The position numbers were made by a program, and so were the translations under genes. A stretch of DNA of 38,930 nucleotides from Methylomonas methanica (GTDB lineage: Bacteria > Pseudomonadota > Gammaproteobacteria > Methylococcales > Methylomonadaceae): assembly GCA_001644045.1 (NCBI GenBank), contig LUUF01000075.1, positions 1 to 38,930 of the forward strand. The letters run 5' to 3'. Shown one piece after another: positions 2,001 to 37,496 of the stretch. Within the stretch, counting starts at the first letter, position 1, and each line of letters starts with the position of its first letter. Below the pieces are notes generated by a model. It searched no databases, was not told where the DNA came from, and worked only from the letters and a program-made list of their open reading frames with translations.

Positions 2001-4061
2001 TTATTTGACGGTATAAACAACGGATGCATTACCCGGATTTCCGGCTTTATCCAATGCGCCGTTGCAAAATGCTGTTAACTGGCCGATGCTTCCGCCGGTC
2101 ACTGTCAAGGTCGCGTTGTTTAATACACCAGACCGGGCATCGCTGGTGCTGCAACCGGCTGTCGGCACTTTTCCGCGCCGATAGACAGCGCCATTTTTTA
2201 CGCCGGTAACGGTTACCAGAGGAGCGGTTAAATCAATTTTTACATCCAGACGAACCGGTATTTCGTGGTTGCCGGCTCGATCCGCGCTGGCTGCATAGAA
2301 TGTGTGATTTCCTTCGCTCCCCGCAGCCACACCGGCACAAGCGGTCAAAGTTAGATCGTTGATACTGGCCGGCGTGGATGCCGGGTCGAGCGCGCAACGG
2401 GTTTCCAGCAAACCGGAACCGCCTGCTTCATCGACCGCGCTTGTTTGAAAGGTTATGGGTGTATTGTTCCAGCCGAACGCATTGGCTATCGGGTTGCTGT
2501 TAACCGTCGTAATCGGCGGGGTCTTATCGTTACTTTGCCCATAAATCAGGTAAGCAGTGCCGGAATTGGTCAGTAATGATGTGCCGTCGAAACTGCTAGC
2601 CAATCTGGCGCCTATCAGTAAGTCGGCGGCTCCGTCGCCATTGATATCACCGCCACCGGCGACTGCCCAACCGGATTGGGAACCGGCGCCGACCCCAGCT
2701 ATTTGAAAGCCGTTGTTCCCGTCGAGGTGATTGACAAATACCGGGTTACCGGTTAATTGCAACGGAGAGGCAAATGCACCGCTCTTACCGAAAATGACAT
2801 AACTACTACCGGAAGCCGTGCCATTGTAGCTGCTATACGGAGCCCCTATAGCCAAATCCGGCTTGCCGTCGCCGTTGATGTCACCGGCGCCTGCCAGCGA
2901 CCAACCGGACCGGTCGCGAGTCGCGGCTCCGTATATCTGGAAGCCACCGTTGCCGCCATTCAAACTGGAGACATTCAATGTCGATGCAAAACCGTGTGAT
3001 CCAAATACCACGAAGGTTTTTCCGGCTTGGTTGTTGGTCGAATTGGTCGACGCCGTGGGAGCGCCAATGGCAAAATCATCAAGATTATCGCCGTTGATGT
3101 CACCGATACCGGCAATTGCCGCTCCGAAATTGCTCCCGGCGGCGCCATCGGTAAGCGTGAAACCATTAATGTTGCTCAAATCGACGCTGGCTGGGAAGCT
3201 ACCATTTTGGCCGAATATCACCGAGGCGGACGTAGCATTCCAGGAACCGACCGCTATGTCGGTATGGCCGTCGCCATTGATATCGCCAATACCGCTGACG
3301 ACGAATGAGCCGCGATTGATGGCCGCGCCGACGATGCTAAAGCCGTTTGCGCCATTCAAGGTTGCGGTGTCTATGACGGCGGGGAAGGAATTGCCGCCGA
3401 ACAAGACATAGCCAGCACCAAGGTTGGGGCTGCCGTTACCGACAATAATATCGTTGAGTCCATCGCCATTGACATCGCCGGCGTTGGCGACGGTGTAACC
3501 CAGCTGACTATTGACCGTACCGGTCAGACGAAAACCGTTTAGGCCATCCAGACTATTAACCCCAAAATTTCCGGAATAGCCGCCGGCTAACCCGAACACA
3601 ACGTATACAGAATCACTCCCTGGGGCGCCAAGCAGCAAGTCCGCGTAACCATCGCCGTTTAAATCACCGGCGCCGGACACAGCGGTTCCCAATTGGCTAT
3701 TGGCAATACTACCGTCAATCTTAAACCCTTCGTTATTTGCCAGCGTCGTCAGATTGATCGGAAAATTTAGACCGCTTGCCGTACCGTAAATGACGTACGC
3801 CGAACCCGGTTGGGTGGAACTGTTTGGCGCGCCAATCACGAAGTCATCGCGGCCGTCGCCGTTGAAATCGCCGATTTTACTGACCGAGTAACCCAGGAAA
3901 TCTCCGTTTGCCACGCCGTCGATCCGGGTGCCGTTGCTACCGTCGAGGCTGGAGAGGTTGACGTTGGCCGGGAAGGCCGCCACCGAACTGTTTGTCAGTC
4001 CGGTAGCGATCAGGCCGAACGCGCCGACTAATAAAGTTGTTTTGCTTGCGGGTTGCGACAT
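2001..4061 (-). CDS. exported seven-repeat FG-GAP (integrin-alpha-like) propeller protein with Ig-like tail
   Basis: I place the start at the ATG at 4061, which has AAGAGG five bases upstream. A GTG two codons earlier (4067) is also in frame. The product is about 686 residues. A signal peptide is followed by seven FG-GAP repeats, each with a calcium loop of the form GDxNGDGxxD and an IGAP-like turn. Examples are GDFNGDGRDD, GDLNGDGYAD, GDVNGDGLND and GDINGDNLDD. Seven repeats make one complete propeller. The C-terminal 180 residues look like two Ig-like or HYR-type segments (TPPITTV and TAPLVTVTG starts, AVDEAGGSG and DKAGNPG motifs) with paired Cys residues. No LPXTG or PEP-CTERM anchor is visible. 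The family usually acts in extracellular adhesion or calcium-dependent binding; the ligand is unknown. Confidence 0.85.
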   Translation of the reverse strand: MSQPASKTTLLVGAFGLIATGLTNSSVAAFPANVNLSSLDGSNGTRIDGVANGDFLGYSVSKIGDFNGDGRDDFVIGAPNSSTQPGSAYVIYGTASGLNFPINLTTLANNEGFKIDGSIANSQLGTAVSGAGDLNGDGYADLLLGAPGSDSVYVVFGLAGGYSGNFGVNSLDGLNGFRLTGTVNSQLGYTVANAGDVNGDGLNDIIVGNGSPNLGAGYVLFGGNSFPAVIDTATLNGANGFSIVGAAINRGSFVVSGIGDINGDGHTDIAVGSWNATSASVIFGQNGSFPASVDLSNINGFTLTDGAAGSNFGAAIAGIGDINGDNLDDFAIGAPTASTNSTNNQAGKTFVVFGSHGFASTLNVSSLNGGNGGFQIYGAATRDRSGWSLAGAGDINGDGKPDLAIGAPYSSYNGTASGSSYVIFGKSGAFASPLQLTGNPVFVNHLDGNNGFQIAGVGAGSQSGWAVAGGGDINGDGAADLLIGARLASSFDGTSLLTNSGTAYLIYGQSNDKTPPITTVNSNPIANAFGWNNTPITFQTSAVDEAGGSGLLETRCALDPASTPASINDLTLTACAGVAAGSEGNHTFYAASADRAGNHEIPVRLDVKIDLTAPLVTVTGVKNGAVYRRGKVPTAGCSTSDARSGVLNNATLTVTGGSIGQLTAFCNGALDKAGNPGNASVVYTVK

Positions 4062-4146
4062 AGTCACCTCTTCTAATAATTACCTAAAGTCGGCTGAAAT
4101 GAGCCGTGGCGTATCAGAACAGGCAAAGATAAATTCAAGCTTAAAA

Positions 4147-8430: not shown

Positions 8431-9132
8431 ATGCCCACATTTTGCTCCAGCTTGATTGTTGAACAGCACGTCGATGGGTTTCAGCAGGAAACCAGCCTGT
8501 GGCAAGATCGCGAGTTAGCCGTATTCGGCTATTCTTATCAACATGAAGGCCAAGCGTTGGATGCGTTGGTCTTCAAAGTCCGTAGAAATCCCAAGGATCT
8601 ACTGACGCATCTGCGGCGGATTTATTTTTGTTACGAAAAATGTTTGTCGGCCCAACTTTATGCGGCGTTGCTAGACTTATTAATCGTCTTGCAGGGAAGA
8701 GGGCAAGCTATTAGTCGCCGGATGATTGAAGCTAGTCGTACGCAACTGAATAGCCGGCAATTGCAGTTATTGAATCAATCCGCGGGTCACGAGCTGCTCG
8801 GCAATACTTATTCCCTATTCAGCAACGGCTATATCGGCTACAGCGAATTGGTGGAAAGCAAGGAACAAACCGAAACTCAGCATGACTTTCTGACGCTGGC
8901 CAACGACTTTATAGAATACAGCCAGCTTGAACAAGCCATGGATGTGTTGGAAACCGGAATTAGCTTGCATCCGGATCGCCAGGATTTTCAGCATGCTTTA
9001 CTAGAACTTTATAAATCGACGGGGAATCGCGAGCGCTTTCAAACCCATCGGCAAACATTCAGCGACTCCGGCATTTTGTTAGCGGACGAATGGCTGGACC
9101 TGGCACATTTTTTTGAAGGGCAGGCATCATGA
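8431..9132 (+). CDS. TPR protein with FimV-like C-terminal repeats, first gene of the GTPase cluster
   Basis: I place the start at the ATG at 8431 because GGAGG lies six bases upstream; a TTG at 8413 is in frame but unsupported. The roughly 233-residue cytoplasmic protein has no signal peptide. Its first half is helical and unrecognised. From about residue 150 it carries TPR-like helix pairs (LTLANDFIEYSQLEQAMDVL, then HALLELYKSTGNRERF) that resemble the C-terminal repeats of FimV. In Pseudomonas aeruginosa FimV is linked to activation of an adenylate cyclase, though a different class from the one here. The stop overlaps the next start by four bases (ATGA). A role as scaffold for the GTPase complex is inference only. 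Confidence 0.7.
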   Translation: MPTFCSSLIVEQHVDGFQQETSLWQDRELAVFGYSYQHEGQALDALVFKVRRNPKDLLTHLRRIYFCYEKCLSAQLYAALLDLLIVLQGRGQAISRRMIEASRTQLNSRQLQLLNQSAGHELLGNTYSLFSNGYIGYSELVESKEQTETQHDFLTLANDFIEYSQLEQAMDVLETGISLHPDRQDFQHALLELYKSTGNRERFQTHRQTFSDSGILLADEWLDLAHFFEGQAS

Positions 9133-10358
9133 GCACGCCGACTAAAACACCGTTTCGAATTGCTCTACATGGCATGGATAGCCGAACGTGCAAAACCATG
9201 GAAATGTATTTGAAGGGGCCGTGCCGCGGCGCTGCCGTGGTAGTCGATACCATGGAGGCCAACATCGATATGATCGATGCGGATCATCCAAAAGCCAGGG
9301 ATATTCTGGATGCCAGAAAAGTCGCTACGCCGGACCGACCGATAATTTTGCTGTCTTTACAAAATCTGCAGTTAGACAATACCTATTTTATAAAAAAGCC
9401 AGTAAACGTCGAACAAATATTGGCAGTGCTCGACAAAATCAAAGCAGTTGCCAAGGCCCGCAAAGCCAATGCCGAAAGCGCAAAAATCAGCCAGACACCA
9501 CCTAAACCAGTTGATTTGCCGGAACAGCCCAAAGTGGCATTGCCGGAAAAAGTGGCTATCGACGTTTATGTCAATAAGTCCAAAGCAACTAAACCAGTCG
9601 ATTCTCCGGAGCAGCACAAAGCCGGCAAACATCAATCGGCGATGCAACTGAACGAAGGCGGCTTTACCGCATTTTTGGGAACGCTGAGTAATGTCGATTT
9701 CGATGATGAAACGCAACTATTAACCGCCTGCTACGACCCTAGACAGTATTTTTTAGGCTACGTAATGTCGGCGTATAAAACCGCTAATTTGCAATCTCGC
9801 GTCTTGCAACTATGTTCGATCTGGAAGCCTTTGACGATTTTTCCGGAAAATCAGGAAATCTGGGTGGATGCCGACGATAAGCAAACCCGTGCCTTTGCCG
9901 GGATGCCCTTGGTTAAAGGCTCCGTCAGCAATATGGTATTGACCGCGGTCGATGCCGCAATACCTATCCAACGAGCCGAGGATAAGTTTCAGGATATGAG
10001 CGCCTTTATCTGGAAGTTAGCTATTTGGACCTCAAAGGGCCGCTTTCCGATCGGCTTGGATATTCAGCGGCCGGTCTTCTTGGAAAGATGGCCAAACTTT
10101 ACCCGGCTGGTCATCACCCCGGACGCCTTGCGCATTGCCGCGTTACTGATCCAAGCCCCCAGAACCCCGTTGGAAGTTGCCAGCCTGTTACATGTCAAGC
10201 CGCAATATGTGTTCGTATTTATTAGCGCTTGTCAGGCGATAGGCATCTTGAAACAAAGCGAACGCCAAGTTGATACGGTAATTGCCGTGGCACAGACCAA
10301 GAAACCAAAGAACGAAGGTCTATTAAGCAAAATTCTCAACAAATTGCGCGGCGCTTAG
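9129..10358 (+). CDS. pseudo-receiver and winged-helix protein of the GTPase cluster
   Basis: The 409-residue cytoplasmic protein is not a named family I recognise. Residues 1-115 fold-match a response-regulator receiver by pattern: an Asp after strand three (MIDADHPKA), a Ser in ILLSLQN and a Lys-Pro in FIKKPVN. The acidic pair after strand one is missing (IALHGMD), so phosphorylation is doubtful. A charged Pro-rich linker (about 115-175) contains an imperfect repeat, KPVDLPEQPK then KPVDSPEQHK. The middle is unassigned. The last 80 residues look like a winged helix (RTPLEVASLLHVKPQYVFVFISACQAIGIL) with a basic tail. Its likely role is an adaptor or effector that responds to the GTPase. It is translationally coupled to the TPR gene. 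Confidence 0.7.
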   Translation: MSTPTKTPFRIALHGMDSRTCKTMEMYLKGPCRGAAVVVDTMEANIDMIDADHPKARDILDARKVATPDRPIILLSLQNLQLDNTYFIKKPVNVEQILAVLDKIKAVAKARKANAESAKISQTPPKPVDLPEQPKVALPEKVAIDVYVNKSKATKPVDSPEQHKAGKHQSAMQLNEGGFTAFLGTLSNVDFDDETQLLTACYDPRQYFLGYVMSAYKTANLQSRVLQLCSIWKPLTIFPENQEIWVDADDKQTRAFAGMPLVKGSVSNMVLTAVDAAIPIQRAEDKFQDMSAFIWKLAIWTSKGRFPIGLDIQRPVFLERWPNFTRLVITPDALRIAALLIQAPRTPLEVASLLHVKPQYVFVFISACQAIGILKQSERQVDTVIAVAQTKKPKNEGLLSKILNKLRGA

Positions 10359-10376
10359 CAAGCGATAGGAATCTCG

Positions 10377-10913
10377 ATGAGCCAATACAAAATTATTTTC
10401 ACTGGCCCCGTGGGCGCCGGCAAAACCACTGCAATCAATGCCATTAGCGATGTACCGCCGGTTAAAACCGATGCGGCAGCTAGCGATATGACGAAAAACC
10501 GCAAAGCATCGACAACGGTGGCGATGGACTATGGCGTGATGAATTTGGCGGGCGGCGAAAAAATTCACCTATACGGTACCCCCGGTCAGGAACGCTTCGA
10601 TTTCATGTGGGATATTTTAACGATGGGCGGGATCGGCTTGGTTTTATTGCTAGACAATACCCGTGCCGACCCCTTCCAAGATATGAAGTTTTTTCTGGAT
10701 ACGTTCGGTAAGTTTATCAACGATACCAGTGTGGCGATTGGGGTAACCCAAATGGATCTGAGCAATAAACCCAGCATAGAAGACTATCATCAGCAATTAC
10801 AGGGATTCGGTTTAAAACCGCCGGTTTTTGCGGTGGATGCGCGGGAAAAAAACGATGTGTCTTTGTTGGTGCAAGCCTTGCTGTATTCCCTGGATCCTGG
10901 TTTGGCGGGGTAA
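10377..10913 (+). CDS. small Ras-like GTPase of the MglA/CvnD type
   Basis: The 178-residue protein has all the expected G motifs. The P-loop GPVGAGKT is at residues 10-17. Switch I Thr46/Thr47 lies in STTVAMDYG. The G3 motif YGTPGQERF covers residues 66-74, and Gly67 replaces the Asp of canonical DxxG. G4 TQMD is at 124-127, and VDAR serves as the G5 position. The STTVAMDYG and GTPGQERFDFMW segments closely match GTPases of the Streptomyces conservons (CvnD) and related prokaryotic Arf-like proteins. Such GTPases work with Roadblock/LC7 partners as GTPase-activating or exchange factors; two Roadblock-type proteins are encoded immediately downstream. The ribosome site AGGA is six bases before the ATG. 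It lacks membrane or lipidation signals. Confidence 0.9.
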   Translation: MSQYKIIFTGPVGAGKTTAINAISDVPPVKTDAAASDMTKNRKASTTVAMDYGVMNLAGGEKIHLYGTPGQERFDFMWDILTMGGIGLVLLLDNTRADPFQDMKFFLDTFGKFINDTSVAIGVTQMDLSNKPSIEDYHQQLQGFGLKPPVFAVDAREKNDVSLLVQALLYSLDPGLAG

Positions 10914-10918
10914 TCGCG

Positions 10919-11575
10919 ATGGAAAGATTTACATTAAAAGACGGGTTGTATTTATATCCCACTCCAGCCGGCGCCTATTTCGCCATTTCTGCTCCGGAGA
11001 CAGATAAACCACGACGGTTTTTAACCCGCCTGCTGCAACAGGAGCAAACACCGCAATTAAATATCGAGCAATTGCAAAAACTGACGGAAATCGACGACGA
11101 AGATAAAGCATTGCAACTGTTGCTGTACTGCCAAAAGCTGGGTTGGGTGCAGGGTGTGGATACTCCTTTGCGGGCGCCGCATGCGGCACTTGAGGAAATT
11201 TTGCCGGAATTGTTGGGGAAAATATCCGAAAGCGGCAAAGTGTTGTTGGCCGACGACCAGGGATTTTACTTGGCTTGCAGCGGATTTGCTCATGAAGTAG
11301 CCGAAGAACTATCGGCACTCAGCGCGGAGTTGGCGACCGTGCATAAACGCCGATCAGGTCTGTTGATCAACAATATGGGCATATCCAGCCATGCCTGGGC
11401 CATCGTCGATCCCTTCGGTAACAGTCAAATCGGTTTTTGGCCGATGTTCGTCGGTAAGCAGCGTTTTGTGTTGGCAATAACGGGCGTACCGCATTTTAAC
11501 CAGGCTGAATTTGTTACTCTGGCCTGGGCTTTAATCACGCGTTATTTAACAAAAGCCGCTGACATTTCAAACTGA
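10919..11575 (+). CDS. winged-helix plus Roadblock-like partner of the GTPase
   Basis: The product has 218 residues. The N-terminal 85 residues look like a winged helix (TEIDDEDKALQLLLYCQKLGWVQ). The C-terminal part (about 105-210) follows the Roadblock/LC7 pattern: a strand KVLLADDQGFYLACSG, a helix EVAEELSALSAELATV, further strands around WAIVDPFGN and RFVLAITG, and a final helix. This arrangement recalls the conservon component CvnC (a small winged-helix protein) joined to a CvnB-like Roadblock fold. That parallel is my inference. It starts five bases after the GTPase stop, so the two are certainly in one operon. It may pair with the classical Roadblock protein next door to form a heterodimer on the GTPase. 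Confidence 0.65.
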   Translation: MERFTLKDGLYLYPTPAGAYFAISAPETDKPRRFLTRLLQQEQTPQLNIEQLQKLTEIDDEDKALQLLLYCQKLGWVQGVDTPLRAPHAALEEILPELLGKISESGKVLLADDQGFYLACSGFAHEVAEELSALSAELATVHKRRSGLLINNMGISSHAWAIVDPFGNSQIGFWPMFVGKQRFVLAITGVPHFNQAEFVTLAWALITRYLTKAADISN

Positions 11576-11616
11576 GCGCAGTGCAACATCACCCATTTTT
11601 TAAGAGGAACTAAATT

Positions 11617-11979
11617 ATGAAAGCAGACATGCTGACATCGGTTTTAACCGAGTTGAACGGCACCTCGGCGGATATAGAGGCATCCGGCGTGATTTCCACC
11701 GATGGTTTGATGATGGCATCGGTGTTGCCCGCCGGCATGGATGAAGACCGGGTCGGGGCGATGAGTGCTGCCATGCTATCCCTAGGCGATAGGACCGCGC
11801 AGGAATTGAACCGCGGCAATTTGGAACAGGTGTTGATCAAAGGCGCCAGGGGGTATGTGTTGATGACTTATGCCGGTAACGAAGCGGTATTAACGGTACT
11901 GGCCAAACCCAACGCTAAACTCGGGCTAATCTTTCTTGATGTCAAGCGTGCGGCGGAGAGTATTTCCGAAATGCTGTAA
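11617..11979 (+). CDS. Roadblock/LC7-domain protein (MglB/CvnB-like)
   Basis: This 120-residue single-domain protein spans the whole Roadblock fold. It has the typical opening helix LTSVLTELNG, the strand IEASGVISTDGLMMAS, a helix with VGAMSAAMLSLGDRTA and the strand pair YVLMTYAGNEAVLTVLAKP. The final helix is KRAAESISEML. Family members dimerise and regulate small GTPases, usually the one encoded beside them, so its substrate is probably the protein from 10377. A good ribosome site, AGAGGA, lies eight bases before the ATG. The residues are less degenerate than in the neighbouring winged-helix Roadblock-like protein, which suggests this is the canonical regulator. Confidence 0.9.
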   Translation: MKADMLTSVLTELNGTSADIEASGVISTDGLMMASVLPAGMDEDRVGAMSAAMLSLGDRTAQELNRGNLEQVLIKGARGYVLMTYAGNEAVLTVLAKPNAKLGLIFLDVKRAAESISEML

Positions 11980-12006
11980 ACCTTAACCGGAAACCCGGAG
12001 CAAATC

Positions 12007-12483
12007 ATGATCGTTGATATGAAACCCGAAGATATTGTTGGTGAGTACCGGGAAGCGACTCTTACCTACTACGATGGCAAATCCCGAAAAGTATTGTACA
12101 CCGAGCTTGAGACACCCTACCCGGATGGCAAACTGATCGTTTCCACCACCACCCCTGATGGCGTCATCAGCCACGTGAATCGGGCTTTCGTGGAAATGTC
12201 TGGCTACAGCGAAGCGGAATTGCTAGGTGCGCCGCATTCCATACTCAGGCATCCGGACATGCCGGCCGCCGCTTTTAAAGACTTATGGGATACGGTGTTA
12301 CGCGGCGAAAAATGGCAAGGCTTTGTAAAAAACCTGCGCAAGGACGGCGGGTACTATTGGGTAAAAGCCACGGTGATACCGAATGTGCGCGGCGGTAAGG
12401 TGGTAGGTTATACCTCGGTGCGCCGAAAACCCTCGCGCAGCAAAGTCGATGAATGCATCGCGCTGTATCCGACACTTTTTTGA
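12007..12483 (+). CDS. free-standing Aer-type PAS domain protein, probable FAD redox sensor
   Basis: The 158-residue protein is one PAS domain (about 40-140) with a short N-terminal extension and almost no tail. There is no membrane segment, HAMP, kinase or methyl-accepting domain. It matches the PAS domain of the aerotaxis receptor Aer: RHPD at 81-84, W94, W103 and N109. As I recall the Aer literature, FAD-critical residues R57, H58, D60, F66, W70, W79 and N85 map here at a constant offset of 24, and all are conserved. It should therefore bind FAD and report redox state. Its output must be by protein contact, most likely within the surrounding GTPase/Roadblock complex. It starts 27 bases after the Roadblock stop. 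Confidence 0.85.
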   Translation: MIVDMKPEDIVGEYREATLTYYDGKSRKVLYTELETPYPDGKLIVSTTTPDGVISHVNRAFVEMSGYSEAELLGAPHSILRHPDMPAAAFKDLWDTVLRGEKWQGFVKNLRKDGGYYWVKATVIPNVRGGKVVGYTSVRRKPSRSKVDECIALYPTLF

Positions 12484-12495
12484 TTGGGGAACATC

Positions 12496-13242
12496 ATGTC
12501 TGTCATGTTTACAGTTAGTCCGGATTTTGCCCCAGATCGCCTGTCGGGCTGGTATATCTTCAATACCTGGTTGCAAAAGCAGAGTGCCGAAGCCATCCAT
12601 CTGGAAATGTACAACCACTATCAAGACCTACACCAGGCCATAGCTGAGGACAAGATCGATTTGATTTATGCCAATCCCTTCGACGCCGCGATGTTGGTCA
12701 GAGAGAAAGGGTTTTTGCCCCTGGTTCGCGCCAAGGGCGAATCCGACGAAGCGATCATTGCCGTGAATGCCGACAGCAATATCAACGATGTGGCCGACCT
12801 AAAGCCGAATACCCGCGTGGCATTCACCGACGATCCGGATGTGCGTTTGATGGGTATGATCATGCTGGAACCCGCCGATTTGCATACCGGCAATATCGTC
12901 CCGCTGTTATCGGACAATCATGTGTTGGTAGCCAAACACCTGCTGAAAGGCGAGGCGGATGTCGGCATCATTCTGGCGGAGGCATACGACAACCTGTCAG
13001 GTATGATAAAAAAACAGCTGCGGGTATTGGTGCGCAGTCAAATTAGTGTTATCTACCATTCCCTGATGATCGGTCCAAGATTACAAAACCGCCGCGACGA
13101 TTTCCAAAAAATACTGGTGGCGATGGATAAGGACGAAAAAGGTAACGGGGTGCTGAATGCTCTTGGTTTCAGTGCATGGCAAAAAATCGAGGACGAAGAA
13201 ATGGAGTTCATGATCGATTTGATGGATACCTTGAACACCTGA
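12496..13242 (+). CDS. cytoplasmic PhnD-like substrate-binding domain protein
   Basis: I choose the ATG at 12496, preceded by GGGGA five bases upstream; a TTG at 12484 is also in frame. The 248-residue product has the two-lobe pattern of phosphate/phosphonate-binding (PhnD-type) proteins: an opening SPDFAPDRLSGWYIFNTWL, the hinge KIDLIYANPFDAAMLV, a DVADLKPNTRVAFTDDPDVRLMG lobe and GEADVGIILAEAY. It lacks a signal peptide or lipobox, so unlike transporter components it should stay in the cytoplasm, and no permease or ATPase gene is nearby. It probably serves as a ligand sensor for the cluster. It follows the PAS gene with only 12 bases between. The ligand cannot be told from the sequence. Confidence 0.8.
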   Translation: MSVMFTVSPDFAPDRLSGWYIFNTWLQKQSAEAIHLEMYNHYQDLHQAIAEDKIDLIYANPFDAAMLVREKGFLPLVRAKGESDEAIIAVNADSNINDVADLKPNTRVAFTDDPDVRLMGMIMLEPADLHTGNIVPLLSDNHVLVAKHLLKGEADVGIILAEAYDNLSGMIKKQLRVLVRSQISVIYHSLMIGPRLQNRRDDFQKILVAMDKDEKGNGVLNALGFSAWQKIEDEEMEFMIDLMDTLNT

Positions 13243-13258
13243 TACGGATTTAATCGTG

Positions 13259-13858
13259 ATGAATCAGCCAACCATAATAGACTTTCTGCGGCACGGCGAA
13301 GCGCGCGGCGGTTCGTATTATCGCGGTATTACCGACGATCCGCTTACGGAACGCGGTTGGCGGCAAATGTATAGCCAATGCGGGGAAGGGCAGTGGGACG
13401 CGGTGATCAGTTCGCCGCTAAGACGCTGCAGATCCTTTGCCGCCGCCTGGTGCGAACAACAGCAACTGGACTTACTGATCGAACCGGCCTGGAGCGAAAT
13501 CGATTTCGGCGCTTGGGAAGGCCAATCCGCCGAACAAATTTCGAGTCGCTGGCCCGACGCACTTGCGGCATTTTATAAAGACCCGGTGAAATTTACCCCG
13601 CCCAGCGCCGAAAGCTACCAAACATTCGCCGCTCGCGTACGGCAGGGCTGGGAAAATTTATTGGCCGGACATGGCGGACGCCGAGTGCTGGTTGTTACCC
13701 ATGCCGGGGTGATCAGAGCACTATTCGCGGAAGCCTTCAATCTGCCGGTTACCCAAAGTTTTCATATCGACCTGCCGCACGCTTGTTTGACCCGTTTCAC
13801 CTGTTTCAACGACGGTAATGGGCGCTTCGTCCAGCTTAACTTTCACAAGCCGGGTTGA
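13259..13858 (+). CDS. histidine phosphatase-superfamily protein (CobC/phosphoglycerate mutase-like)
   Basis: The 199-residue product has the RHGE motif with phospho-acceptor His12, a conserved Arg in SSPLRRCRSF, Glu80 in SEIDFGAWEG and the second catalytic His148 in VTHAGVIR. The set is complete, so it should be an active phosphatase. The WEGQ and RHGEARGG features and the length resemble alpha-ribazole-5'-phosphate phosphatase (CobC), but no cobalamin genes are present, so the substrate is uncertain. It lies 16 bases after the PhnD-like gene, and I prefer the ATG at 13259 over a GTG one codon earlier. It may belong to the preceding operon. The cyaA promoter begins inside its last codons. 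Confidence 0.8.
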   Translation: MNQPTIIDFLRHGEARGGSYYRGITDDPLTERGWRQMYSQCGEGQWDAVISSPLRRCRSFAAAWCEQQQLDLLIEPAWSEIDFGAWEGQSAEQISSRWPDALAAFYKDPVKFTPPSAESYQTFAARVRQGWENLLAGHGGRRVLVVTHAGVIRALFAEAFNLPVTQSFHIDLPHACLTRFTCFNDGNGRFVQLNFHKPG

Positions 13859-13870
13859 TTCTTCTATACT
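13842..13870 (+). promoter_or_regulatory. sigma-70 promoter for cyaA
   Basis: TTCACA (13842-13847) and TATACT (13865-13870) are spaced by exactly 17 bases, each one mismatch from consensus. The predicted transcription start is near 13877, about 24 bases before the TTG start of cyaA, which gives a short leader. The -35 lies inside the end of the phosphatase gene. This suggests cyaA can be expressed independently of the upstream GTPase cluster. Confidence 0.6.
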
Positions 13871-13900
13871 TGCCTCACACTTGATTTTGGCGCGGCAACT

Positions 13901-16699
13901 TTGACGAATCGATTCCTACCCATCCATTTAGGCGCGCCGGGCGAAGAGATCAGCAAAAAAGATCTGTATGCGGTTGCCCAACGTTTCAAGCACTTCAATC
14001 AATTGCGTTTACAGCATGTACAAAGTTTCCTGCAGCCGCGCCAGCAGGACTTTTTGAAGCTACTGCCATTACTGTTTCATCAGAATCACCCCTTGTTACC
14101 CGGTTTCGTATCGCTGGAAGGCCCCGCCGGTATTCCCGATTACACCCCCAACAAACAAACCACCGATGTCGCCAAACAGTTTTCCAAGGGCTTTGTTTAT
14201 AAGCGCAAGGCCTTAAGACACTATCCGATCCAGGCTATTTTTTTAATGGGTAGCGTCGGTAGCATGGCTTTTTCAAAAAATAGCGATATCGATATTTGGC
14301 TTTGTCATTCATCCACCTTGGCGCCCGATGAATTGAACGAATTGCGGCAAAAAGCCCAGGAAGTGGAAAAATGGGCGGCATCCTTAAAAATCGAAGCGCA
14401 TTTTTTTCTGGTTGATGCGACGCAGTTTTTGCGCGGTGAAAACACACCGATCTCCAAAGAGAGTAGCGGAGAAACCCAACATTATTTGTTGTTGGAGGAG
14501 TTCTACCGCACCTCGATTTATATCGCCGGGCGCTTGCCGGTCTGGTGGTTGGTGCCGCCGCAACAGGAAAAATACTATAAGCAATACGTCGCGCACTTAC
14601 TGGAAAACCGGTTTGTCTCGGAAGCGGACGTCATCGATTTCGGCGGCCTGCAAGACATGCCGATGGCCGAATTCGTCAGCGCGACGCTCTGGCATATATA
14701 CAAATCCCTGACTTCGCCGCACAAATCTCTGTTGAAGCTACTGTTGATGGAAAGTTATGCCAGCGAATTTCCCAATCCGCAATGGCTGTGTCTGTCCTTG
14801 AAGCAGGCGGTTTATCAAGGCGATTTCAGTGTCGATAGTCTGGATCCATACTTGTTGATGTACCGCAAAGTGGATGCCTATCTGCGCCAAGCGCAGTCCA
14901 AACGGCGGTTGAACCTGATTAGGGAATGTTTTTACATGAAAATCATGGCTGCCTCCGAAAATCTCACGGAGAACAGGGTACGCCTGCAGCGCGAAGATTA
15001 TCTGCACAGCGTGGCAAATCAATGGGAATGGCCGGACGATTTATTGGACAATTTGGCCAGCCAAAAATTTTGGGACATCAAAAAAGCCAGTGTCGAGCAT
15101 GTGGTGATTCGCGATCAACTGCAGCAATGTCTGCGGATGATTTTGAAGTTCTCCGGTTTGCCGTTGGATCAGGCGCAGCGGGAAAACAGGGACTTGAAGT
15201 TGATTGGCCGTAAATTGCGGGCCGCCCTGGATTTACGCCCCGACAAAATCGAAGTGCTAACCACCAGAACCACCGTCCACGCTAAACCCGATCTATTAGT
15301 TGTTGTGGAGGTTCTTGCTGACGACACGGCCCCACGCTGGTGTTTATATGTCGATAGAATCGCTTCGCAAAAAGCGTCCCCCGAAAGCGCTATTAAATCG
15401 GGCGAGAGTTTGCTGGAAGTTTTGTGCTGGGCGGTGGTGAACGGTTTATATAAAAAATCGCTCAATCTGCAACTAGTTACCACGACTCTTAAAATAGCCA
15501 GTAATGATTTGTATCAGCTATTTAATGAATTGAATGCGTTTCTAAATCGCTATCTGTCCGGCCGGGAGAACGATCTGGAGGTTTACGGCGAGCCTAATCG
15601 CATCTCCTCCTCGTTGTTACTGATTAATCTTGGCGAAAGCTTGGCGATCGACGCGAACAATCAGCAATTAGTGATGAGCGAGCGCTCCGACCCATTAAGT
15701 TATGGCGACAGCCGCCAGTGTTTCATCCAGAGCATTCAACGCTTATCCGTATCCAGTTGGGGCGAGGCCAGCTTGCAACGCTATATCGGCATAGAAGGCG
15801 TTTTTAACTGCCTCGTCGATGTATTCAACAATAGTGCCGGACCTTTATCGGCCGATAAACTCCAGGCCTTATGTTACAACCCGGTACGCGGCAGAAGCAT
15901 AGTTTTGCGCATCGAAGCCTTGTTCGGCAATTTACTAAAGTTTTTTGCGTCCGGCCGGGACGGCTTACAGCGCTACATTGTTGCCGCCGAGACGGGTTAT
16001 GGCTTGTTCCAACTTAGAAACGGCAGCCTGGGTTATTATCGGTTGGACACCCAAAATCAACTGCTACAAGAATTGGCCAAACCCAATCCGCAATTTTCCG
16101 CGGTTTTTTTTGACGCCTATGTGCTGGATCAAACCTATATCCCTTCTTTATATAGCCATAATTTGGCTGATGTGATTCAGGTTTTTTATCACGCAACCAG
16201 CAAACACGTCGGGGTTTATGTGCTCGATGAAAAAGGCGCGCTGTTCGTTCATCAGCATAGCAATGCCAATCCGGAACACCTTATCACTCATTATTCGGTG
16301 TTTTTGGGAACGCTGCTGGCGCGCGCGCAATTGCCGGATGGCTTAAACGTCAAGTTTTACGAAATCCAGCGAAACTCGGCAGGGGTGCTGTCTTGCCAGG
16401 CCGTACCGGTCAAACTTGGCGCCAGTGTGATGGATTTAAGAGTCCGGATAGCTACCGAGGAAACCGGCGCTATTGCAATATATTGCAACGAAGAAAAATT
16501 TTCCGTCACCAACGCCGACAGCTTTAAACCCATCCGCGCCCATATACTTGGCTATCGCAAGAATCACGACGACTACCCGTTTCACATCACGGAAATAGAT
16601 GTACCTTGCCGACTATTGGGTACGGAGCGTAACGAGCAGTTACAGACCACGCATTTCCTAAACTACAAACAAAAAATAGAAGATAAATTAAATATTTAA
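13901..16699 (+). CDS. cyaA: class I adenylate cyclase
   Basis: This cytoplasmic enzyme makes cAMP from ATP. The 932-residue length is close to enterobacterial CyaA (about 850). The N-terminal catalytic domain carries the nucleotidyltransferase motif GSVGS (117-121) followed by SDIDIW (128-133), with metal-binding D129 and D131. The C-terminal half is the regulatory region that, in enteric bacteria, responds to the glucose PTS. The start is a TTG: the frame upstream is closed by the TGA at 13856 and has no other start codon, and the first internal ATG is past residue 110. A TTG start is also used in Escherichia coli cyaA, where it limits translation. CRP-like sites at 438, 4147 and 18044 suggest local targets of the cAMP made. 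Confidence 0.95.
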   Translation: MTNRFLPIHLGAPGEEISKKDLYAVAQRFKHFNQLRLQHVQSFLQPRQQDFLKLLPLLFHQNHPLLPGFVSLEGPAGIPDYTPNKQTTDVAKQFSKGFVYKRKALRHYPIQAIFLMGSVGSMAFSKNSDIDIWLCHSSTLAPDELNELRQKAQEVEKWAASLKIEAHFFLVDATQFLRGENTPISKESSGETQHYLLLEEFYRTSIYIAGRLPVWWLVPPQQEKYYKQYVAHLLENRFVSEADVIDFGGLQDMPMAEFVSATLWHIYKSLTSPHKSLLKLLLMESYASEFPNPQWLCLSLKQAVYQGDFSVDSLDPYLLMYRKVDAYLRQAQSKRRLNLIRECFYMKIMAASENLTENRVRLQREDYLHSVANQWEWPDDLLDNLASQKFWDIKKASVEHVVIRDQLQQCLRMILKFSGLPLDQAQRENRDLKLIGRKLRAALDLRPDKIEVLTTRTTVHAKPDLLVVVEVLADDTAPRWCLYVDRIASQKASPESAIKSGESLLEVLCWAVVNGLYKKSLNLQLVTTTLKIASNDLYQLFNELNAFLNRYLSGRENDLEVYGEPNRISSSLLLINLGESLAIDANNQQLVMSERSDPLSYGDSRQCFIQSIQRLSVSSWGEASLQRYIGIEGVFNCLVDVFNNSAGPLSADKLQALCYNPVRGRSIVLRIEALFGNLLKFFASGRDGLQRYIVAAETGYGLFQLRNGSLGYYRLDTQNQLLQELAKPNPQFSAVFFDAYVLDQTYIPSLYSHNLADVIQVFYHATSKHVGVYVLDEKGALFVHQHSNANPEHLITHYSVFLGTLLARAQLPDGLNVKFYEIQRNSAGVLSCQAVPVKLGASVMDLRVRIATEETGAIAIYCNEEKFSVTNADSFKPIRAHILGYRKNHDDYPFHITEIDVPCRLLGTERNEQLQTTHFLNYKQKIEDKLNI

Positions 16700-20231: not shown

Positions 20232-20771
20232 ATGGAAAAGCTGATTCGATATTTAGCGGTTTCGGTATGTTTAGTTACTGCGCCGATAGTTAATGCCGCA
20301 CCGCAAGCCATGGAACAATATACGGTATTGGCAGCGCTAACGTTGAACTTTGCCAGATTCACCCAATGGCCGGAGCAAGCATTTGCAGAATCGGGCGATT
20401 CGTTGAATGTATGTTTGGTAGGCGATAATGTTGTGCAGCAATCCTTTGAGTCTATCAACGGCAAAAACGTTGGAGATAGGGCGATTAAAATTATCTACGC
20501 CGACCGATTGCGTAATTTAACGCAATGTCATGTGTTATTTATTAGTGAATTAGCAAAAAATTTACTGTTACAAGTTTTTATCGATATTAAATCACACCCT
20601 GTTTTGACCATGGGGGAAGATCAAGATTTTATGGATTCCGGCGGCATGGTAAGCATGATTAATAAGGAGGGTAAGATTCAGCTATATGTTAATTTAGCCG
20701 CCGCAAAGGCTGCGCGGTTGAATATAAGCTCAAATCTGCTGCGGCTTGCGAATATTGTCGGCGAAAATTAG
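20232..20771 (+). CDS. YfiR-family (DUF4154) periplasmic regulator
   Basis: The 179-residue product has a signal peptide (cleavage after VNA, near residue 22). It then shows the family pattern: a helix with ALTLNFARFTQWPE, a strand LNVCLVGDN, ADRLRNLTQCHVLFIS, then PVLTMGEDQDFMDSGGMVSMINKEGKIQLYVNLAAAKAARLNISSNLLRLANI. In Pseudomonas YfiR binds the periplasmic part of the CHASE8-containing cyclase YfiN and keeps it inactive. The next gene, 15 bases downstream, encodes a CHASE8-type N-terminus, so the same partnership is likely here. Two Cys (in NVCLV and TQCHV) could form the structural disulfide known in YfiR. The partner YfiB lipoprotein is absent. Confidence 0.88.
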   Translation: MEKLIRYLAVSVCLVTAPIVNAAPQAMEQYTVLAALTLNFARFTQWPEQAFAESGDSLNVCLVGDNVVQQSFESINGKNVGDRAIKIIYADRLRNLTQCHVLFISELAKNLLLQVFIDIKSHPVLTMGEDQDFMDSGGMVSMINKEGKIQLYVNLAAAKAARLNISSNLLRLANIVGEN

Positions 20772-23700: not shown

Positions 23701-25880
23701 TCGCCGACGCATCTATGCCCGGTGCACCGCATGCCGGCGCCGAGAACCAAGCTCGCGGCCTATCTCTGGAAGCCAAGCGAATTTTACTGATCGACGACGA
23801 TCCGAATTTTAGACTGATTACCGGTGAGCAGTTAAAAGCCGCCGGTTTCGACGTAGTAGAGGCCGAGAGTGGAGAAGCGGCATTGTTGCGATTGGATGCG
23901 GCAATTCCGGATCTGGTCATAGTCGATGCGATTATGCCCGGTATCGACGGATTCGAAACCTGCCGACGCATGTCGGCCAATCCCGCGATGACCGATGTAC
24001 CCATCATTATGTCCACCGGTCTGGAAGACATAGAATCGATAAACCGGGCATTCAAGGTAGGCGCTACCGACTTTATTATCAAACCACTTAATCATGTGGT
24101 GTTGATTCATCACATCAGATTTTTGCTGCGCTCCAGCCACGATACCGCCGAATTGCGTAACAGCAAGCAGCAACTTTCCGCCGCGCAACGCATCGCGGGT
24201 TTGGGCTATTGGACCTGGGATCCTAAGCTGGATAAATTCGAAATTTCGCCATTTTTAGCCGAAATGTGCCAAATGCCGGCCGACTATTTCCGAGGTGAGC
24301 TGAGCAGCTATCTGAATTTGATCGAGGCGTCGGACCGTAAATTAGTACTGACCTTGATAGAAGCGGCTGCCCAGGGCGAAAAAGTGGAATACGTCGAGTA
24401 TCGTTTGCGTCCTGACTTAGAGACCGCGATTAACGTCCGCCAGGATACCGCGTTGATTAGCAGCGGGCAGCTGAGCTTCGTCACCGGCACGGTTCAGGAC
24501 ATTTCCAAGCAAAAGCAATCGGAACAAATCATCCATCAGTTGGCGTATTTCGATGAACTGACCGGGCTGGCCAGCCGCGTTCATTATCACAAGCGGATTC
24601 AGCAAACCATAAAAGCCGCGGCGCGCGGTAAGCTGGAATTCGCGTTTTTATTCCTGGATCTGGACGAGTTTAAATATGTCAACGACAGCTTCGGGCACAA
24701 CATCGGCGATCAATTCCTGAAAGCGATAGCCCAGCGCATTCAAAACGTGGTCCGCGAAGAGGATTTTGCGGCCAGATTGGGTGGGGACGAGTTTTGTATC
24801 ATTGCCAGTAGCATCACCGACGAATTTCAAGCCATGGAAATCGCCGAACGCTGTTTGCAAGAAATCAATCGGCCTTTAATTCTCGATACGCACCATTTAA
24901 AACCTCGCGTCAGCATCGGTATCGCCATTTATCCAAAAGATGGCGAGAACGAGCACGACCTGATGAAGGCTGCCGATACCGCCATGTACTCGGCCAAAAG
25001 CGCCGGTAAACAGCGCTACGCGTACTATCGGCCGGAGATGACGGGGCTGGCCATCAAACGCTTGCAAGACGAACAAACCTTGCGGGATGCGCTGGAATAC
25101 CACCAGTTTGAACTCTATTACCAGCCGCAAGTGAGTATGTTGGATGGCCGCATGATAGGTATCGAAGCCTTGCTGCGCTGGCGCCATCCCTTGCGTGGTC
25201 TGATAGGGCCAAGCGAATTTATTCCTTTGGCCGAAGCGCTGGGTTTGATCGGGAAAATTTGCGACTGGGCGATTCAACTGGCCTGCGAGCAACTAATTGC
25301 TTGGCAAAATCAAGGACTGCCGCTGATCACCACGGCTGTTAACGTGTCGGCAAGCCATTTCCGCGATCCGCAATTTCCGGTCAAGTTGCAGGAGATCCTT
25401 AAACACACGCAATTGCCCGCTCAGTATTTACAAATCGAAGTCACGGAAAGCGCGATGCAAACCCCGAAGGACTTGGATATTTTTAAAAAATTGAAAGCAA
25501 TAGGGGTAAAAATTGCGATAGACGATTTCGGTACCGGTTTTTCGTCGCTGGCGTCGCTGAAGCAGATGCCGGTGGATTGCCTGAAAATCGACCGAACGTT
25601 TGTCCAGGATGTGCTGTTCAATCCGCAAACACCTATTCTGTTGGGAACGATTATCGGTATGGCCAATGCGATGGAATTCTCGTTAGTGGCCGAAGGCGTC
25701 GAAACCATAGAGCAAGCCATGGTCATGAGCGGTTTGGGTTGTCAGGTCGTCCAGGGCTATTTGTTTAGCCCACCGCTCACCGCCGCCCAATTGCCGGCAT
25801 TGTTTTACAAAGATTTCCGGCTGGAATTTATTCAGTCGAAACAAGATTATAACGACAGACCACTAAACGATTATGATTGA
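20787..25880 (+). CDS. giant membrane hybrid histidine kinase with GGDEF and EAL domains
   Basis: The product has 1697 residues. Domains in order: TM1 (about 14-36), a CHASE8-like periplasmic domain, TM2 (about 205-225), HAMP, and a coiled coil to about 320. The histidine kinase core follows (His334 in [11 protein letters not shown], then the ATPase domain), then REC1 (Asp625), REC2 (Asp764), HPt (His918), REC3 (Asp1047), PAS (about 1125-1245), GGDEF (GGDEF at 1332-1336, with I-site REED at 1323-1326) and EAL (EAL at 1460-1462, later IDDFGTG). All catalytic and phospho-acceptor residues are present, so it could autophosphorylate, run an internal phosphorelay, and both make and break c-di-GMP. 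The YfiR-like protein upstream probably contacts CHASE8. Its stop overlaps the HDOD gene start. Confidence 0.93.
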
Positions 25881-26733
25881 CCTGGAATTGCCGGAGTGTT
25901 TCGCCGATGTTAAGCGGCTGCCTTCGTTGCCACATGATGTCCATCAAGTCGTCAAAGCCCTGTCCAACGACGATCTGGACTATGCCCGGTTAGCAAAGAT
26001 CCTGGCGGGGCATGCGACTATATCGTCCCGACTGATCGCCTTAGCCAATTCGGCTTGGTTTAATAACTCCAGCGAACCGGTGACGTCTCTGGAGAGAACC
26101 TGTTTGAAACTGGGTTTGAATATTGTCCGGGGCGTCGGTATCGGTCTGGCGGTGATGAAACCGTTTAATGTCAGGGATTGCCGAAGTTTCGATATTAAGC
26201 GCTATTGGGTCAGTACCATGTTGGTGGCGCATGCCGCCCGCTCGCTATCCGATGAATTTGCGTTGGAACAAGGTAACGAGCAGTTGGCGCAAACCGTGCA
26301 CACGGGCGGCATACTGCATAACATCGGTTTGTTGTGCATGGCCGACATCATGCCCGAGGAGACCAATCAGGCCCTGCGTTTCAAACAAGCTAATCCCGAA
26401 GTGGACCTGAATCAGGCTTTACGCAAAGTGCTGCATACCGATTATTGCGAAGTAGGGGCGCATCTGGCCGACTCCTGGGGCATACCCGAAGCGCTGGTTG
26501 CGATTATTCGATACCACCGCAATCTTGCTTATGAAGGCACATATTGGCGCCAAGCGGCCATAGTGGGTGCCGCGGCGCAAATGGTTGGTAGTCTGTTCGA
26601 CGATATAGACACATGGCCGGTAGTGGCTTTCGAAAAACTGGCGATCAGCCCGGCCCACCAAACCGAGCTGTTTGCCGATCTGCAAAGCCAGTTTTTAAAA
26701 ACCCAGGAATTAGCAAAAGTACTATTCCGTTAG
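25873..26733 (+). CDS. HDOD-domain protein coupled to the giant sensor
   Basis: The 286-residue protein has an HDOD domain over most of its length: [15 protein letters not shown] at the start, [18 protein letters not shown], the helical bundle with [15 protein letters not shown], and [14 protein letters not shown] followed by [24 protein letters not shown] proteins are HD-superfamily members that usually lack full metal-ligand sets and act as signalling adaptors. Here some His-Asp pairs remain (ILHNIG lacks the HD dyad), so enzymatic activity is unlikely. The ATG overlaps the end of the sensor gene by eight bases, which implies coupled translation and a shared pathway. It is convergent with the PepSY gene, 16 bases apart. 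Confidence 0.88.
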
Positions 26734-34307: not shown

Positions 34308-35150
34308 TCAAAGGAACATCGAATGAGCTAGTTCGATCTCTTCCGAGACCCCTTCGATTTCCAAAATTTCGGTATCGGGCTGGATGCCCAGTTTCACAAA
34401 GGCAGGTACGGTGTTCCAATCGACGCGGCAGGCCGGATGATCGGTGCCGGCGATGCTTTGCAGAAACGCGACTTGCACTAAATCGACGTAATCCGCCTTT
34501 GGACCGGAGTCGCGCTGAAAATCGACGTATTCGGAGGGCACCAATTTAAGTTCTTCCGGAAAATTCCAGGTATTCATGATCAGTTTGCCGACGTGTGGAT
34601 GGGCTTTTTCCAGCAGCTTATCCAAGCGAGATGGGCTATCTCTAAATTCCGGAATTTTTTCGACTAGCGTCAGTATCGGTAATTTACCGATTTGATGAAT
34701 CAGTCCGGCCAGCATCGCTTCATCGGCGTTTAAATGCGGCACAAATGCGGCCAACGCGCGACTGATCGCCGAGACGTTCACGCCTTGCTCCCAAGTGCTG
34801 CGGAAATAACCTTCCAGTAACGCTGTGGTAGGCGTGAACATTTGCTGCATGATCAAACTGGTGATCAAGGTACGGATGGTGTTGTTACCGAGCCGGGTTA
34901 CGGCCATTTGGATATTTTTGATTTCCATCGTGCCGCGATACAAGGGGCTGTTGGCAACTTGTATCAAACGTGCGGAAATGGCGGCATCGGTCGCGATAAT
35001 ATCCGCCAGACTTTGCGCGGTGGCATCGCCTTTGCTGACGGCATCGCGAACTTTGATGGCGACGTCCGGCAAGGTAGGCAGGATTAATCGATTGGCGTCC
35101 AGTTCCGCTTGTACATGGACTAAAAAGTCTTGAACAGATTTGAATTGCAT
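34308..35150 (-). CDS. HDOD-domain signalling protein
   Basis: The 280-residue protein is a single HDOD domain: LPTLPDVAIKVRDAV, IATDAAISARLIQVANSPLYRG, MAVTRLGNNTIRTLITSL, LAGLIHQIGKLPIL (H-Q instead of the HD dyad), then HPHVGKLIMNTWNFPEELKLVPSEY. The missing catalytic dyad points to an adaptor role. It lies between ygfZ and the heme A synthase gene, 14 and 13 bases from each, so the three are co-transcribed. It is a different subgroup from the HDOD proteins at 25873 and 36627, whose domains differ clearly in sequence. There is no evident DNA-binding or GGDEF partner in its operon. Confidence 0.9.
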   Translation of the reverse strand: MQFKSVQDFLVHVQAELDANRLILPTLPDVAIKVRDAVSKGDATAQSLADIIATDAAISARLIQVANSPLYRGTMEIKNIQMAVTRLGNNTIRTLITSLIMQQMFTPTTALLEGYFRSTWEQGVNVSAISRALAAFVPHLNADEAMLAGLIHQIGKLPILTLVEKIPEFRDSPSRLDKLLEKAHPHVGKLIMNTWNFPEELKLVPSEYVDFQRDSGPKADYVDLVQVAFLQSIAGTDHPACRVDWNTVPAFVKLGIQPDTEILEIEGVSEEIELAHSMFL

Positions 35151-36195: not shown

Positions 36196-36627
36196 GTGTC
36201 GAAAAATCTTGAACAGAGCATGAGTTTTACAATAGGACGATCGCGTGTACTGATAATCATCGTTAGCGCCATCTACGTTCTAACCTTATTGGCTTGTTGG
36301 TTAAACGCGCTGCCTATGCCTTACAAATGGATGCTAACGATGCTGGTATTATTGAGCTGGAAAAGCAATGTGACGTCTGGCGAAATTAACGTCGTTTATC
36401 TGCGCTATACTCCTAATCACGGATGGTCGCTGCTTAGCGATAGCGACCACTACCAGCCGATCGACATTCAAGCGTCAACTGTGGTTACTAGGTTTCTAAT
36501 CGCGTTGCATTGGGTACAGAATAAAGGGAGGCGTCAATCGATGATAATTCCAAAAGATGCAATGAGTAGCAACGATTACCGCAAACTATCGGTTTGTTTA
36601 ATTATTTCAGATCATGGTCACGGTTGA
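36196..36627 (+). CDS. YgfX (CptA)-like membrane protein
   Basis: The 143-residue product starts at a GTG (36196) after GGTG. It has two adjacent membrane helices (about 17-35 and 41-56), a soluble beta-rich part with the typical W-x-L-L segment (GWSLLSDSDHY), then a stretch ending IIPKDAMSSNDYRKLSVCL. That last motif is the YgfX signature (IPDAL-x-x-DDYRRLRVRL). In E. coli, YgfX is described both as a toxin affecting cytoskeletal proteins and as a membrane partner of the flavinylation factor SdhE. Here no sdhE gene is adjacent, so its role is open. The stop overlaps the start of the HDOD gene by one base (TGATG), so the two are coupled. Identification rests on motif and synteny. Confidence 0.65.
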   Translation: MSKNLEQSMSFTIGRSRVLIIIVSAIYVLTLLACWLNALPMPYKWMLTMLVLLSWKSNVTSGEINVVYLRYTPNHGWSLLSDSDHYQPIDIQASTVVTRFLIALHWVQNKGRRQSMIIPKDAMSSNDYRKLSVCLIISDHGHG

Positions 36628-37496
36628 TGAACGCCGGTGTAAAGCAAACAATTGAATTGCAAATGAATTCGCTGAAGAACTTGCCGGTTTTGCCCGAGGC
36701 CAGTTTGCGAATTTTGGCTGCTATTAACACTCCGGAAATACCGATAGATAAACTGGCCGATGCCTTATCGTTATCGTCTGGCTTAGTCGCCAGATTGCTT
36801 GGACTAGCTAATTCCGCCTATTTTGCCCGGGGCAGAAATGTGTCCGATATTCGTACCGCCATTTTTCAGGTCTTGGGGCTGGACTTGGTAAAAGCACTGG
36901 CATTGGCAATTATCTTTAATGTGCTGTTCGATACGCGCAAATGCCAAGGATTTGACGCCGAGTACTTTTGGATACGCTCGTTAACGACAGCCGTATCCGC
37001 GCAAAAACTGGCAGCCGAGATCCCTCAATTGCGTGAGTTTACGCCCTCGACTATTTATTCGGGTGGCTTATTGCTAAACATCGGCATATTGGTGCTCGGT
37101 TATCTGCAGCCTGATGAGTTGCATGGCATTTTTGTCGATAGCAAAAAAAATCGCTTGTCCGTGGCTCAAGAGATTTCACAGCAACTAGGGCAGAGCCATT
37201 ATCAAATTGGTTATTTTTTATTGCATAAATGGCATCTGCCGATGCTGTATCAGGTTTTATTGCAAAACTACGAAAATAAGGATTTTGAGGGTGCGGAACA
37301 GTCTTTATTGGCCCTATTGCGGATTTGTGAGCGATTAAGCGCAACCGTGATTACCGGCCAGCCGATTAATCCGCTAGAGTTTGAAGCGGAATGCCGAAAA
37401 ATCGAGTTGCCGCTTGAACGTGTACTTGAGCTTGCCGAACAATTGGCGGAAAACCAACCGGCTATGCAAAAACTTGCAACTATCATGGGGAATTGA
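36627..37496 (+). CDS. HDOD-domain protein coupled to GAF-GGDEF cyclase
   Basis: I place the start at the ATG at 36627, which overlaps the preceding stop (TGATG); a TTG at 36594 lies inside ygfX. The 289-residue protein is one HDOD domain: LPVLPEASLRILAAIN, LSLSSGLVARLLGLANSAYFARG, RTAIFQVLGLDLVKALAL, SGGLLLNIGILVLGYL and QIGYFLLHKWHLP. The HD dyad is absent (LLNIG), which argues against hydrolase activity. Its stop overlaps the next start in the same way (TGATG), so it probably acts in the pathway of the GAF-GGDEF protein. The giant sensor also has an HDOD protein coupled to it, so an HDOD partner beside a c-di-GMP enzyme occurs twice in this window. Confidence 0.88.
   Translation: MNAGVKQTIELQMNSLKNLPVLPEASLRILAAINTPEIPIDKLADALSLSSGLVARLLGLANSAYFARGRNVSDIRTAIFQVLGLDLVKALALAIIFNVLFDTRKCQGFDAEYFWIRSLTTAVSAQKLAAEIPQLREFTPSTIYSGGLLLNIGILVLGYLQPDELHGIFVDSKKNRLSVAQEISQQLGQSHYQIGYFLLHKWHLPMLYQVLLQNYENKDFEGAEQSLLALLRICERLSATVITGQPINPLEFEAECRKIELPLERVLELAEQLAENQPAMQKLATIMGN

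Follow-up and report, generated by a model that had tools for sequence, protein, structure and literature searches.

The seven-gene operon

We analyzed contig LUUF01000075.1 of a Methylomonas methanica genome assembly of 5.02 Mb; the whole contig of 38,930 bases is the window referred to below. In a scan of named genomes, the nearest named relatives of the host are Methylomonas species. At 8431-13242 the window carries seven genes, A to G, centered on a small GTPase of the MglA type and two proteins assigned to the Roadblock family or fold. A first-pass annotation, made without database searches, had described seven close-packed genes at this position, and all seven open reading frames (ORFs) were confirmed on the + strand, with intergenic gaps from A to G of -4, 18, 5, 41, 27, and 0 bases:

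A, 8431..9132, + strand: cytosolic protein of the tetratricopeptide repeat (TPR) type, 233 amino acids (aa), ATG at 8431 and ORF open from TTG 8413; sub-threshold TPR_14 and TPR profile matches
B, 9129..10358, + strand: degenerate receiver (residues 5-119), variable linker, and C-terminal winged-helix-like helices; AlphaFold model and predicted secondary structure
C, 10377..10913, + strand: small GTPase with the Group 3 MglA motifs GTPGQ, TQMD, and DAR; Pfam and motif comparison
D, 10919..11575, + strand: N-terminal winged-helix-like helical region and C-terminal Roadblock fold; predicted structure
E, 11617..11979, + strand: Roadblock/LC7 protein, the most conserved of the seven; Robl_LC7, E-value 8.6e-17
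F, 12007..12483, + strand: stand-alone Aer-type PAS protein, 158 aa; Aer PAS domain 8dik, E-value 8.7e-37
G, 12484..13242, + strand: PhnD-like binding protein, apparently cytosolic; Phosphonate-bd, E-value 1.9e-43

The initial descriptions of E, F, and G as a Roadblock/LC7 protein, an Aer-type PAS protein, and a cytosolic PhnD-like protein all held. E is 82-93% identical over nine relatives from the same order. F matches only PAS families in Pfam; it shares its PAS sensor-domain sequence with the aerotaxis receptor Aer and differs in lacking the membrane, HAMP, and chemoreceptor signaling parts. Its homologs carry the motif RHPDMP (65 of 69) and a C-terminal consensus LYPTLF. G also matched PtxB (E-value 8e-5) and ArrX, confirming the binding-protein fold family that it shares with the transport proteins PhnD and PtxB; by a simple hydropathy measure, the hydrophobic N-terminal stretch of an export signal is absent in all 74 of 74 homologs. 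As first described, the cluster combines GTPase and Roadblock proteins with soluble proteins of the PAS and PhnD-like kinds, and it has no membrane kinase.

For A, B, and D, part of the original description stood. Pfam gives only a sub-threshold TPR_14 match for A, which lacks an N-terminal hydrophobic stretch, and a profile search matches it to TPR proteins; the label "FimV-like" is weak, as FimV scored at an E-value of 0.013, ranked below unrelated TPR proteins with better scores, and no FimV family appeared in the NCBIfam results. B and D have no Pfam match at an E-value of 0.1. AlphaFold models and structure comparison predict a receiver-like fold for the N terminus of B and a Roadblock fold for the C-terminal part of D, in line with the pseudo-receiver and Roadblock calls, and the winged helices proposed for both are compatible, in predicted secondary structure only, with helices at B 333-371 and D 30-80. 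Since neither E nor B matched D in profile comparisons, the Roadblock assignment of D rests on its predicted fold.

A Group 3 MglA core

The GTPase has several small-GTPase and P-loop matches in Pfam, and it carries all of the Group 3 MglA motifs: Thr replacing the G2 Arg, GTPGQ, a G4 motif without Lys (TQMD), and DAR. Among 79 homologs, TTVA[ML]D was present in 77, GTPGQ in 79, and DAR in 76, and 74 of the 77 readable G4 motifs lack Lys. As described in the main text of a 2014 survey, Group 3 systems consist of a protein with a receiver-like part and a winged helix-turn-helix (wHTH), an MglA-type GTPase, and one or two MglB-type proteins; they belong to beta- and gamma-Proteobacteria and were also recorded in Neisseria, Xanthomonas, and Stenotrophomonas (PMC4316618). 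The window module matches this account in the receiver-like N terminus of B, the GTPase motifs GTPGQ, Lys-less G4, and DAR, the two MglB-type Roadblock proteins (E by Pfam and D by predicted fold), and a host within the beta/gamma-proteobacterial range; with respect to the wHTH, the C terminus of B is compatible in secondary structure, and in the fold comparison of B the receiver domain took up the lists of matches. By motifs and gene content, the receiver-like protein, GTPase, and two Roadblock proteins are therefore a published Group 3 MglA system, and the earlier statement that no named system has this content does not apply to the core.

The window module differs from this core in adding the TPR protein A, the PAS protein F, and the PhnD-like protein G, and some of its relatives add globin or CZB neighbors. 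Neither the main-text account of Group 3 in the survey (PMC4316618; supplementary neighbor table excluded) nor the open-licence full texts searched contained a description of A, of the F-G pair, or of heme, zinc, or iron-sulfur partners, and the passages of PMC11580455 consulted added nothing on Group 3. Within the literature searched, the accessory sensor parts and the TPR gene are new relative to the known core.

The first-pass annotation had likened the cluster to the conservons of Actinomycetota, in which the CvnC partner is a DUF742 protein, and the GTPase to CvnD. We rejected conservon membership because a CvnA-type histidine kinase is absent from the seven genes and the G4 motif is TQMD, not the NxFD of Group 2. 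Conservons and actinobacterial G protein systems, as far as described in PMC13343842, do share with the window module a GTPase, a Roadblock protein, and a further partner, with soluble accessory proteins as probable sensory inputs; they differ in having a CvnA histidine kinase at their core, another G4 motif, and actinobacterial hosts.

The MglA-MglB-RomR-SgmX system of Myxococcus offers another comparison, as it combines a GTPase, a Roadblock regulator, a receiver protein, and a TPR effector for pili (PMC7519303). However, its GTPase belongs to Group 1, with an Arg finger and TVPGQ (PMC4316618), its genes are scattered, the source describes no soluble PAS or PhnD partners, and SgmX has 1,060 aa. 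The window GTPase has neither the Arg finger beside the G2 Thr nor TVPGQ, and we therefore do not place it in Group 1.

Conservation of the module

The earlier proposal would have been undermined had the genes occurred together only in this strain, and the set instead recurs widely. In 61 genomes (own genome, same genus, and same order), C was matched in 38. The 20 regions fetched (loci are numbered L below) contain a window-type GTPase in 16 and all seven genes in order in 12. The other eight are L031, cut at both contig ends; L030, whose 2.9 kb of sequence beyond E contain neither F nor G; L033 and L037, with a PhnD-like gene upstream of A instead of the F-G arrangement; L025, L026, and L027, which are other GTPase copies; and L042, a second Roadblock locus of the window genome. 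A scan of named genomes found 409 sites related to E, and among the best 80, a selection biased to near kin, 59 have the seven genes in order. Contig ends explain eight of the remaining 21 (L099, L101, L109, L121, L129, L134, L144, and L149). L131, L135, and L152 have A to E without F and G; L133 also lacks F and G, L097 lacks A, and L138 consists of A, D, and E. In the last seven (L095, L098, L104, L120, L137, L147, and L148), the core is missing from the strand that carries E.

Over 114 loci, A was found in 84, B in 92, C in 78 (an undercount, as longer overlapping ORFs were kept), D in 93, E in 95, F in 69, and G in 74. The genes that flank the module in the window recur rarely (argH in 8, cobC in 9, and cyaA in 10), and for this reason we rejected a function read from argH, the cobC-like gene, and cyaA. 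The set is kept in relatives and its neighborhood is not: the seven genes are a module. That they stand in order in 12 of 20 regions and 59 of 80 named loci, with differing flanks, argues against chance.

To cover the class evenly, 370 genomes were sampled and 60 regions were fetched around E matches; the majority of the stronger matches are covered, though some are not. E was matched in 79 of the 370 genomes, 49 of them at 55% identity or more by hand count. The 60 regions hold 46 E loci of at least 160 bits, and counts from them are lower bounds, since diverged genes can escape. At least 5 kb of upstream sequence is present for 34 of these loci; of them, 33 have B near E, 29 have D, 27 have C (including kinase-GTPase fusions), and 27 have A. 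A TPR gene is usually the first of the operon.

A kinase and response regulator of the OmpR type lie 1.5 kb upstream of the module in the window, and this raises the possibility that B is phosphorylated by such a neighboring pair, or by a Chp-type kinase, with F and G only modulating the response. Among B homologs the acceptor Asp is kept in 37 of 44 and the Lys in 44 of 45, and Chp-like clusters are present in a few relatives. However, B has lost the metal-binding acidic pair of receivers, and the kinase pair, part of the changing flank, accompanies the module in just 5 of 114 loci; we regard this explanation as very improbable.

Sensor genes beside the Roadblock gene E

F and G travel as a pair. 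Among 41 class-sample loci with at least 2.5 kb downstream of E, 13 have both and none has just one of them, and in the best 80 named loci the single exception to the pairing is a contig end. The pair lies directly behind E in distant lineages as well, and elsewhere other sensor genes take or share the same place. Of the 80 named loci, eight have a protoglobin gene adjoining E (L088, L090, L091, L107, L113, L146, L147, and L148), and among the 46 class-sample loci six have one near E. Pfam PF11563 confirmed the assignment in L088, L148, L166, and L159; the others were identified with a profile built from such genes. In L135, L152, L162, L184, and L199 (2 of 80 named and 3 of 46 class-sample loci), E adjoins a CZB gene, Pfam-confirmed in three. 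In a more distant gene arrangement, a bacterial globin lies near E in L188 (Pfam), L173, and L189 (both by profile), and L190 encodes a fusion in which the globin follows a 2Fe-2S domain. In L033, the PhnD-like gene located upstream of A encodes a STAS-PhnD fusion. L147 and L148 have a protoglobin-E pair without other module genes; L148 and the full module L090 lie about 1.1 Mb apart on one Methylobacter luteus contig.

Sensor genes have been exchanged. A tree of C, D, and E, built from 55 rows by a quick method, leaves 18 of its 52 inner branches open. On this tree at least 13 changes of sensor state are required (F-G 8, protoglobin 7, CZB 2), compared with a shuffled mean of 22.1. Since the states are clustered on the tree, they are inherited as well as exchanged.

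Could F and G be passengers of the operon, a redox/ligand pair of its own that shares only its expression with the GTPase module? Many loci have the core A to E without them, and both proteins are soluble and could act elsewhere. Their position directly behind E in distant lineages, and the replacement of the pair by other sensor genes in that place, speak against such passengers, as does the globin-Roadblock fusion protein HGbRL reported from Methylacidiphilum (PMC4476040), and we consider this alternative improbable. HGbRL likewise couples a heme globin to a Roadblock domain, but within one protein, whereas in relatives of the module separate globin genes adjoin E. This gene context suggests that E relays input to the GTPase from soluble sensors that use flavin, heme, zinc, or a ligand. 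The swappable sensors probably respond to oxygen, to redox state, or to a small molecule.

Further genes stand near Roadblock or GTPase genes at these loci. In three protoglobin-bearing Methylobacter loci, a hemerythrin-domain gene lies just upstream of A (L088, 6191-6628, by Pfam; L090 and L091 by profile). The second Roadblock locus of the window genome (L042, contig C80, 5756-8063) has an OmpA-domain gene, a V4R-domain gene, and two consecutive Roadblock genes; the 15 kb region showed no GTPase. V4R adds a further small-ligand domain to those found next to Roadblock genes. L190 (9333-11495) and L192 (10852-13008) encode proteins of about 720 aa with two binding-protein domains (DctP and Peripla_BP_6). 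The more distant arrangement also contains a small conserved ORF without a Pfam family and, between the GTPase and Roadblock genes, a fusion of an ABC-type ATPase with a dual-specificity phosphatase (L188 by Pfam; L173, L179, and L190 by profile). Fusion proteins in which the GTPase follows a Ser/Thr protein kinase domain are encoded in L183 (8347-9846, Pfam), L202 (from 5248), and L168 (from 6129; both by profile), and L174 (6468-8072) encodes an AAA ATPase, resembling the PEP-CTERM-associated ATPase family, with a Roadblock domain fused after it.

Output: pili or transcription?

The evidence on output is thinner than that on input. Several loci place module genes beside chemosensory genes. 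In L138, genes A, D, and E lie directly 5′ of a Pil-Chp-like cluster. Its five products, all with Pfam matches, are two response regulators, the first extended at its N terminus, CheW, a CheA hybrid, and a methyl-accepting chemotaxis protein (MCP). A Pil-Chp-like cluster also follows E in L095, L098, and L104, with an MCP confirmed in L104, a similar ORF in L098, and none seen in L095. In L176, a related B-C-E set stands beside PilG-, CheW-, and MCP-like genes (profile matches). Two published accounts point the same way. In Myxococcus, MglA-GTP is described as working on pili through the TPR protein SgmX (PMC7519303). The mgl genes of Snodgrassella belong to Group 3, and mutation of an orphan mglB was reported to alter the soft-agar colony edge and competition in bees (PMC11112851).

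Other observations weigh against a pilus output or against general sensory input through E. The link to pili is seen in five loci only (L095, L098, L104, L138, and L176), and in three of these (L095, L098, and L104) A lies between E and the cluster on the opposite strand and no B, C, or D was found. All 49 genomes whose E match reaches at least 55% identity have PilT above the cut-off, versus 268 of 321 others (p 2.8e-4); as PilT is near-universal in the class and lineage or genome size may explain the association, we give it little weight. Judged from its sequence, the likeness of A to FimV is weak. On the input side, 28 of the 41 class-sample loci lack F and G, many of them having no recognizable sensor beside E, and in L120 and L137 E stands alone with no sensor.

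A different output was suggested for Group 3 systems by the 2014 survey (PMC4316618): B, with its receiver-like and winged-helix parts, and D, with its winged helix and Roadblock part, would bind DNA under control of the GTPase, so that F and G would set gene expression rather than motility. The predicted helices of B and D noted above are compatible with this idea. However, the candidate regions gave no DNA-binding family or fold match, a weak negative because the fold lists were filled by other domains, and the Snodgrassella data point to pili (PMC11112851). We consider a transcriptional output unlikely, although clearly less so than the passenger explanation; a pilus output is likelier, though the choice is not settled.

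We therefore favor, with some reservation, the view that the operon encodes a Group 3 MglA-type G-protein module with soluble cytosolic sensors as input and pilus-based movement or attachment as output. F, as a flavin PAS protein responding to redox state or oxygen, and G, as a PhnD-like receptor for an anion or small ligand, would act as a pair on E. Together with the second Roadblock protein D, E would set the nucleotide state of C, perhaps through contacts in which these proteins serve as GTPase-activating proteins or guanine nucleotide exchange factors. The degenerate receiver B could be a scaffold or a link to chemosensory signaling. A may be an effector of C comparable to SgmX that connects to the machinery of type IV pili; redox state and ligand would then govern movement or attachment by pili. 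We infer this last step less surely than the signal flow from sensors to GTPase. The first interpretation of the cluster, a GTPase switch reading redox state and a small ligand, is thus partly supported.

It is possible, and we advance it tentatively, that Group 3 MglA systems in general are widespread kinase-free G-protein pathways in which the highly conserved Roadblock protein E is a plug-in site for interchangeable cytosolic sensors of redox state, gases, and ligands (flavin PAS and PhnD-like proteins, protoglobin, globin, 2Fe-2S-globin, or CZB proteins), and which steer type IV pili by oxygen or redox state. The switch would then perhaps steer surface movement by pili, and Group 3 systems would be a small-GTPase version of energy taxis on surfaces. 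Exchangeable partners of recognizable chemistry (flavin, heme, zinc, iron-sulfur, and ligand) also make the input to Roadblock regulators directly testable. Functional data on Group 3 are scarce (we found one study), and culturable methanotrophs have the full seven-gene set; the module is present in Methylotuvimicrobium buryatense 5G (L089), a tractable laboratory methanotroph.

Other features of the window

Searching the window for Rfam families at the gathering threshold and for tRNAs gave no match. A PADLOC scan of the seven proteins at an E-value of 0.01 gave no match, and we therefore rejected a role in anti-phage defence. Downstream of G, at 13256-16699, come the cobC-like phosphatase gene and the class I adenylate cyclase gene cyaA, after gaps of 13 and 42 bases; they may be cotranscribed with G, an arrangement limited to near relatives. 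Elsewhere, an FG-GAP repeat protein of 688 aa is encoded at 2001-4067, and a YfiR/HmsC-like gene at 20232-20771 lies directly 5′ of a gene for a 1,697 aa protein of the kinase/GGDEF/EAL type (domains read by eye). Three HDOD-domain genes are present at 25873-26733, 34308-35150, and 36594-37496, the last directly preceding a GAF-GGDEF gene.

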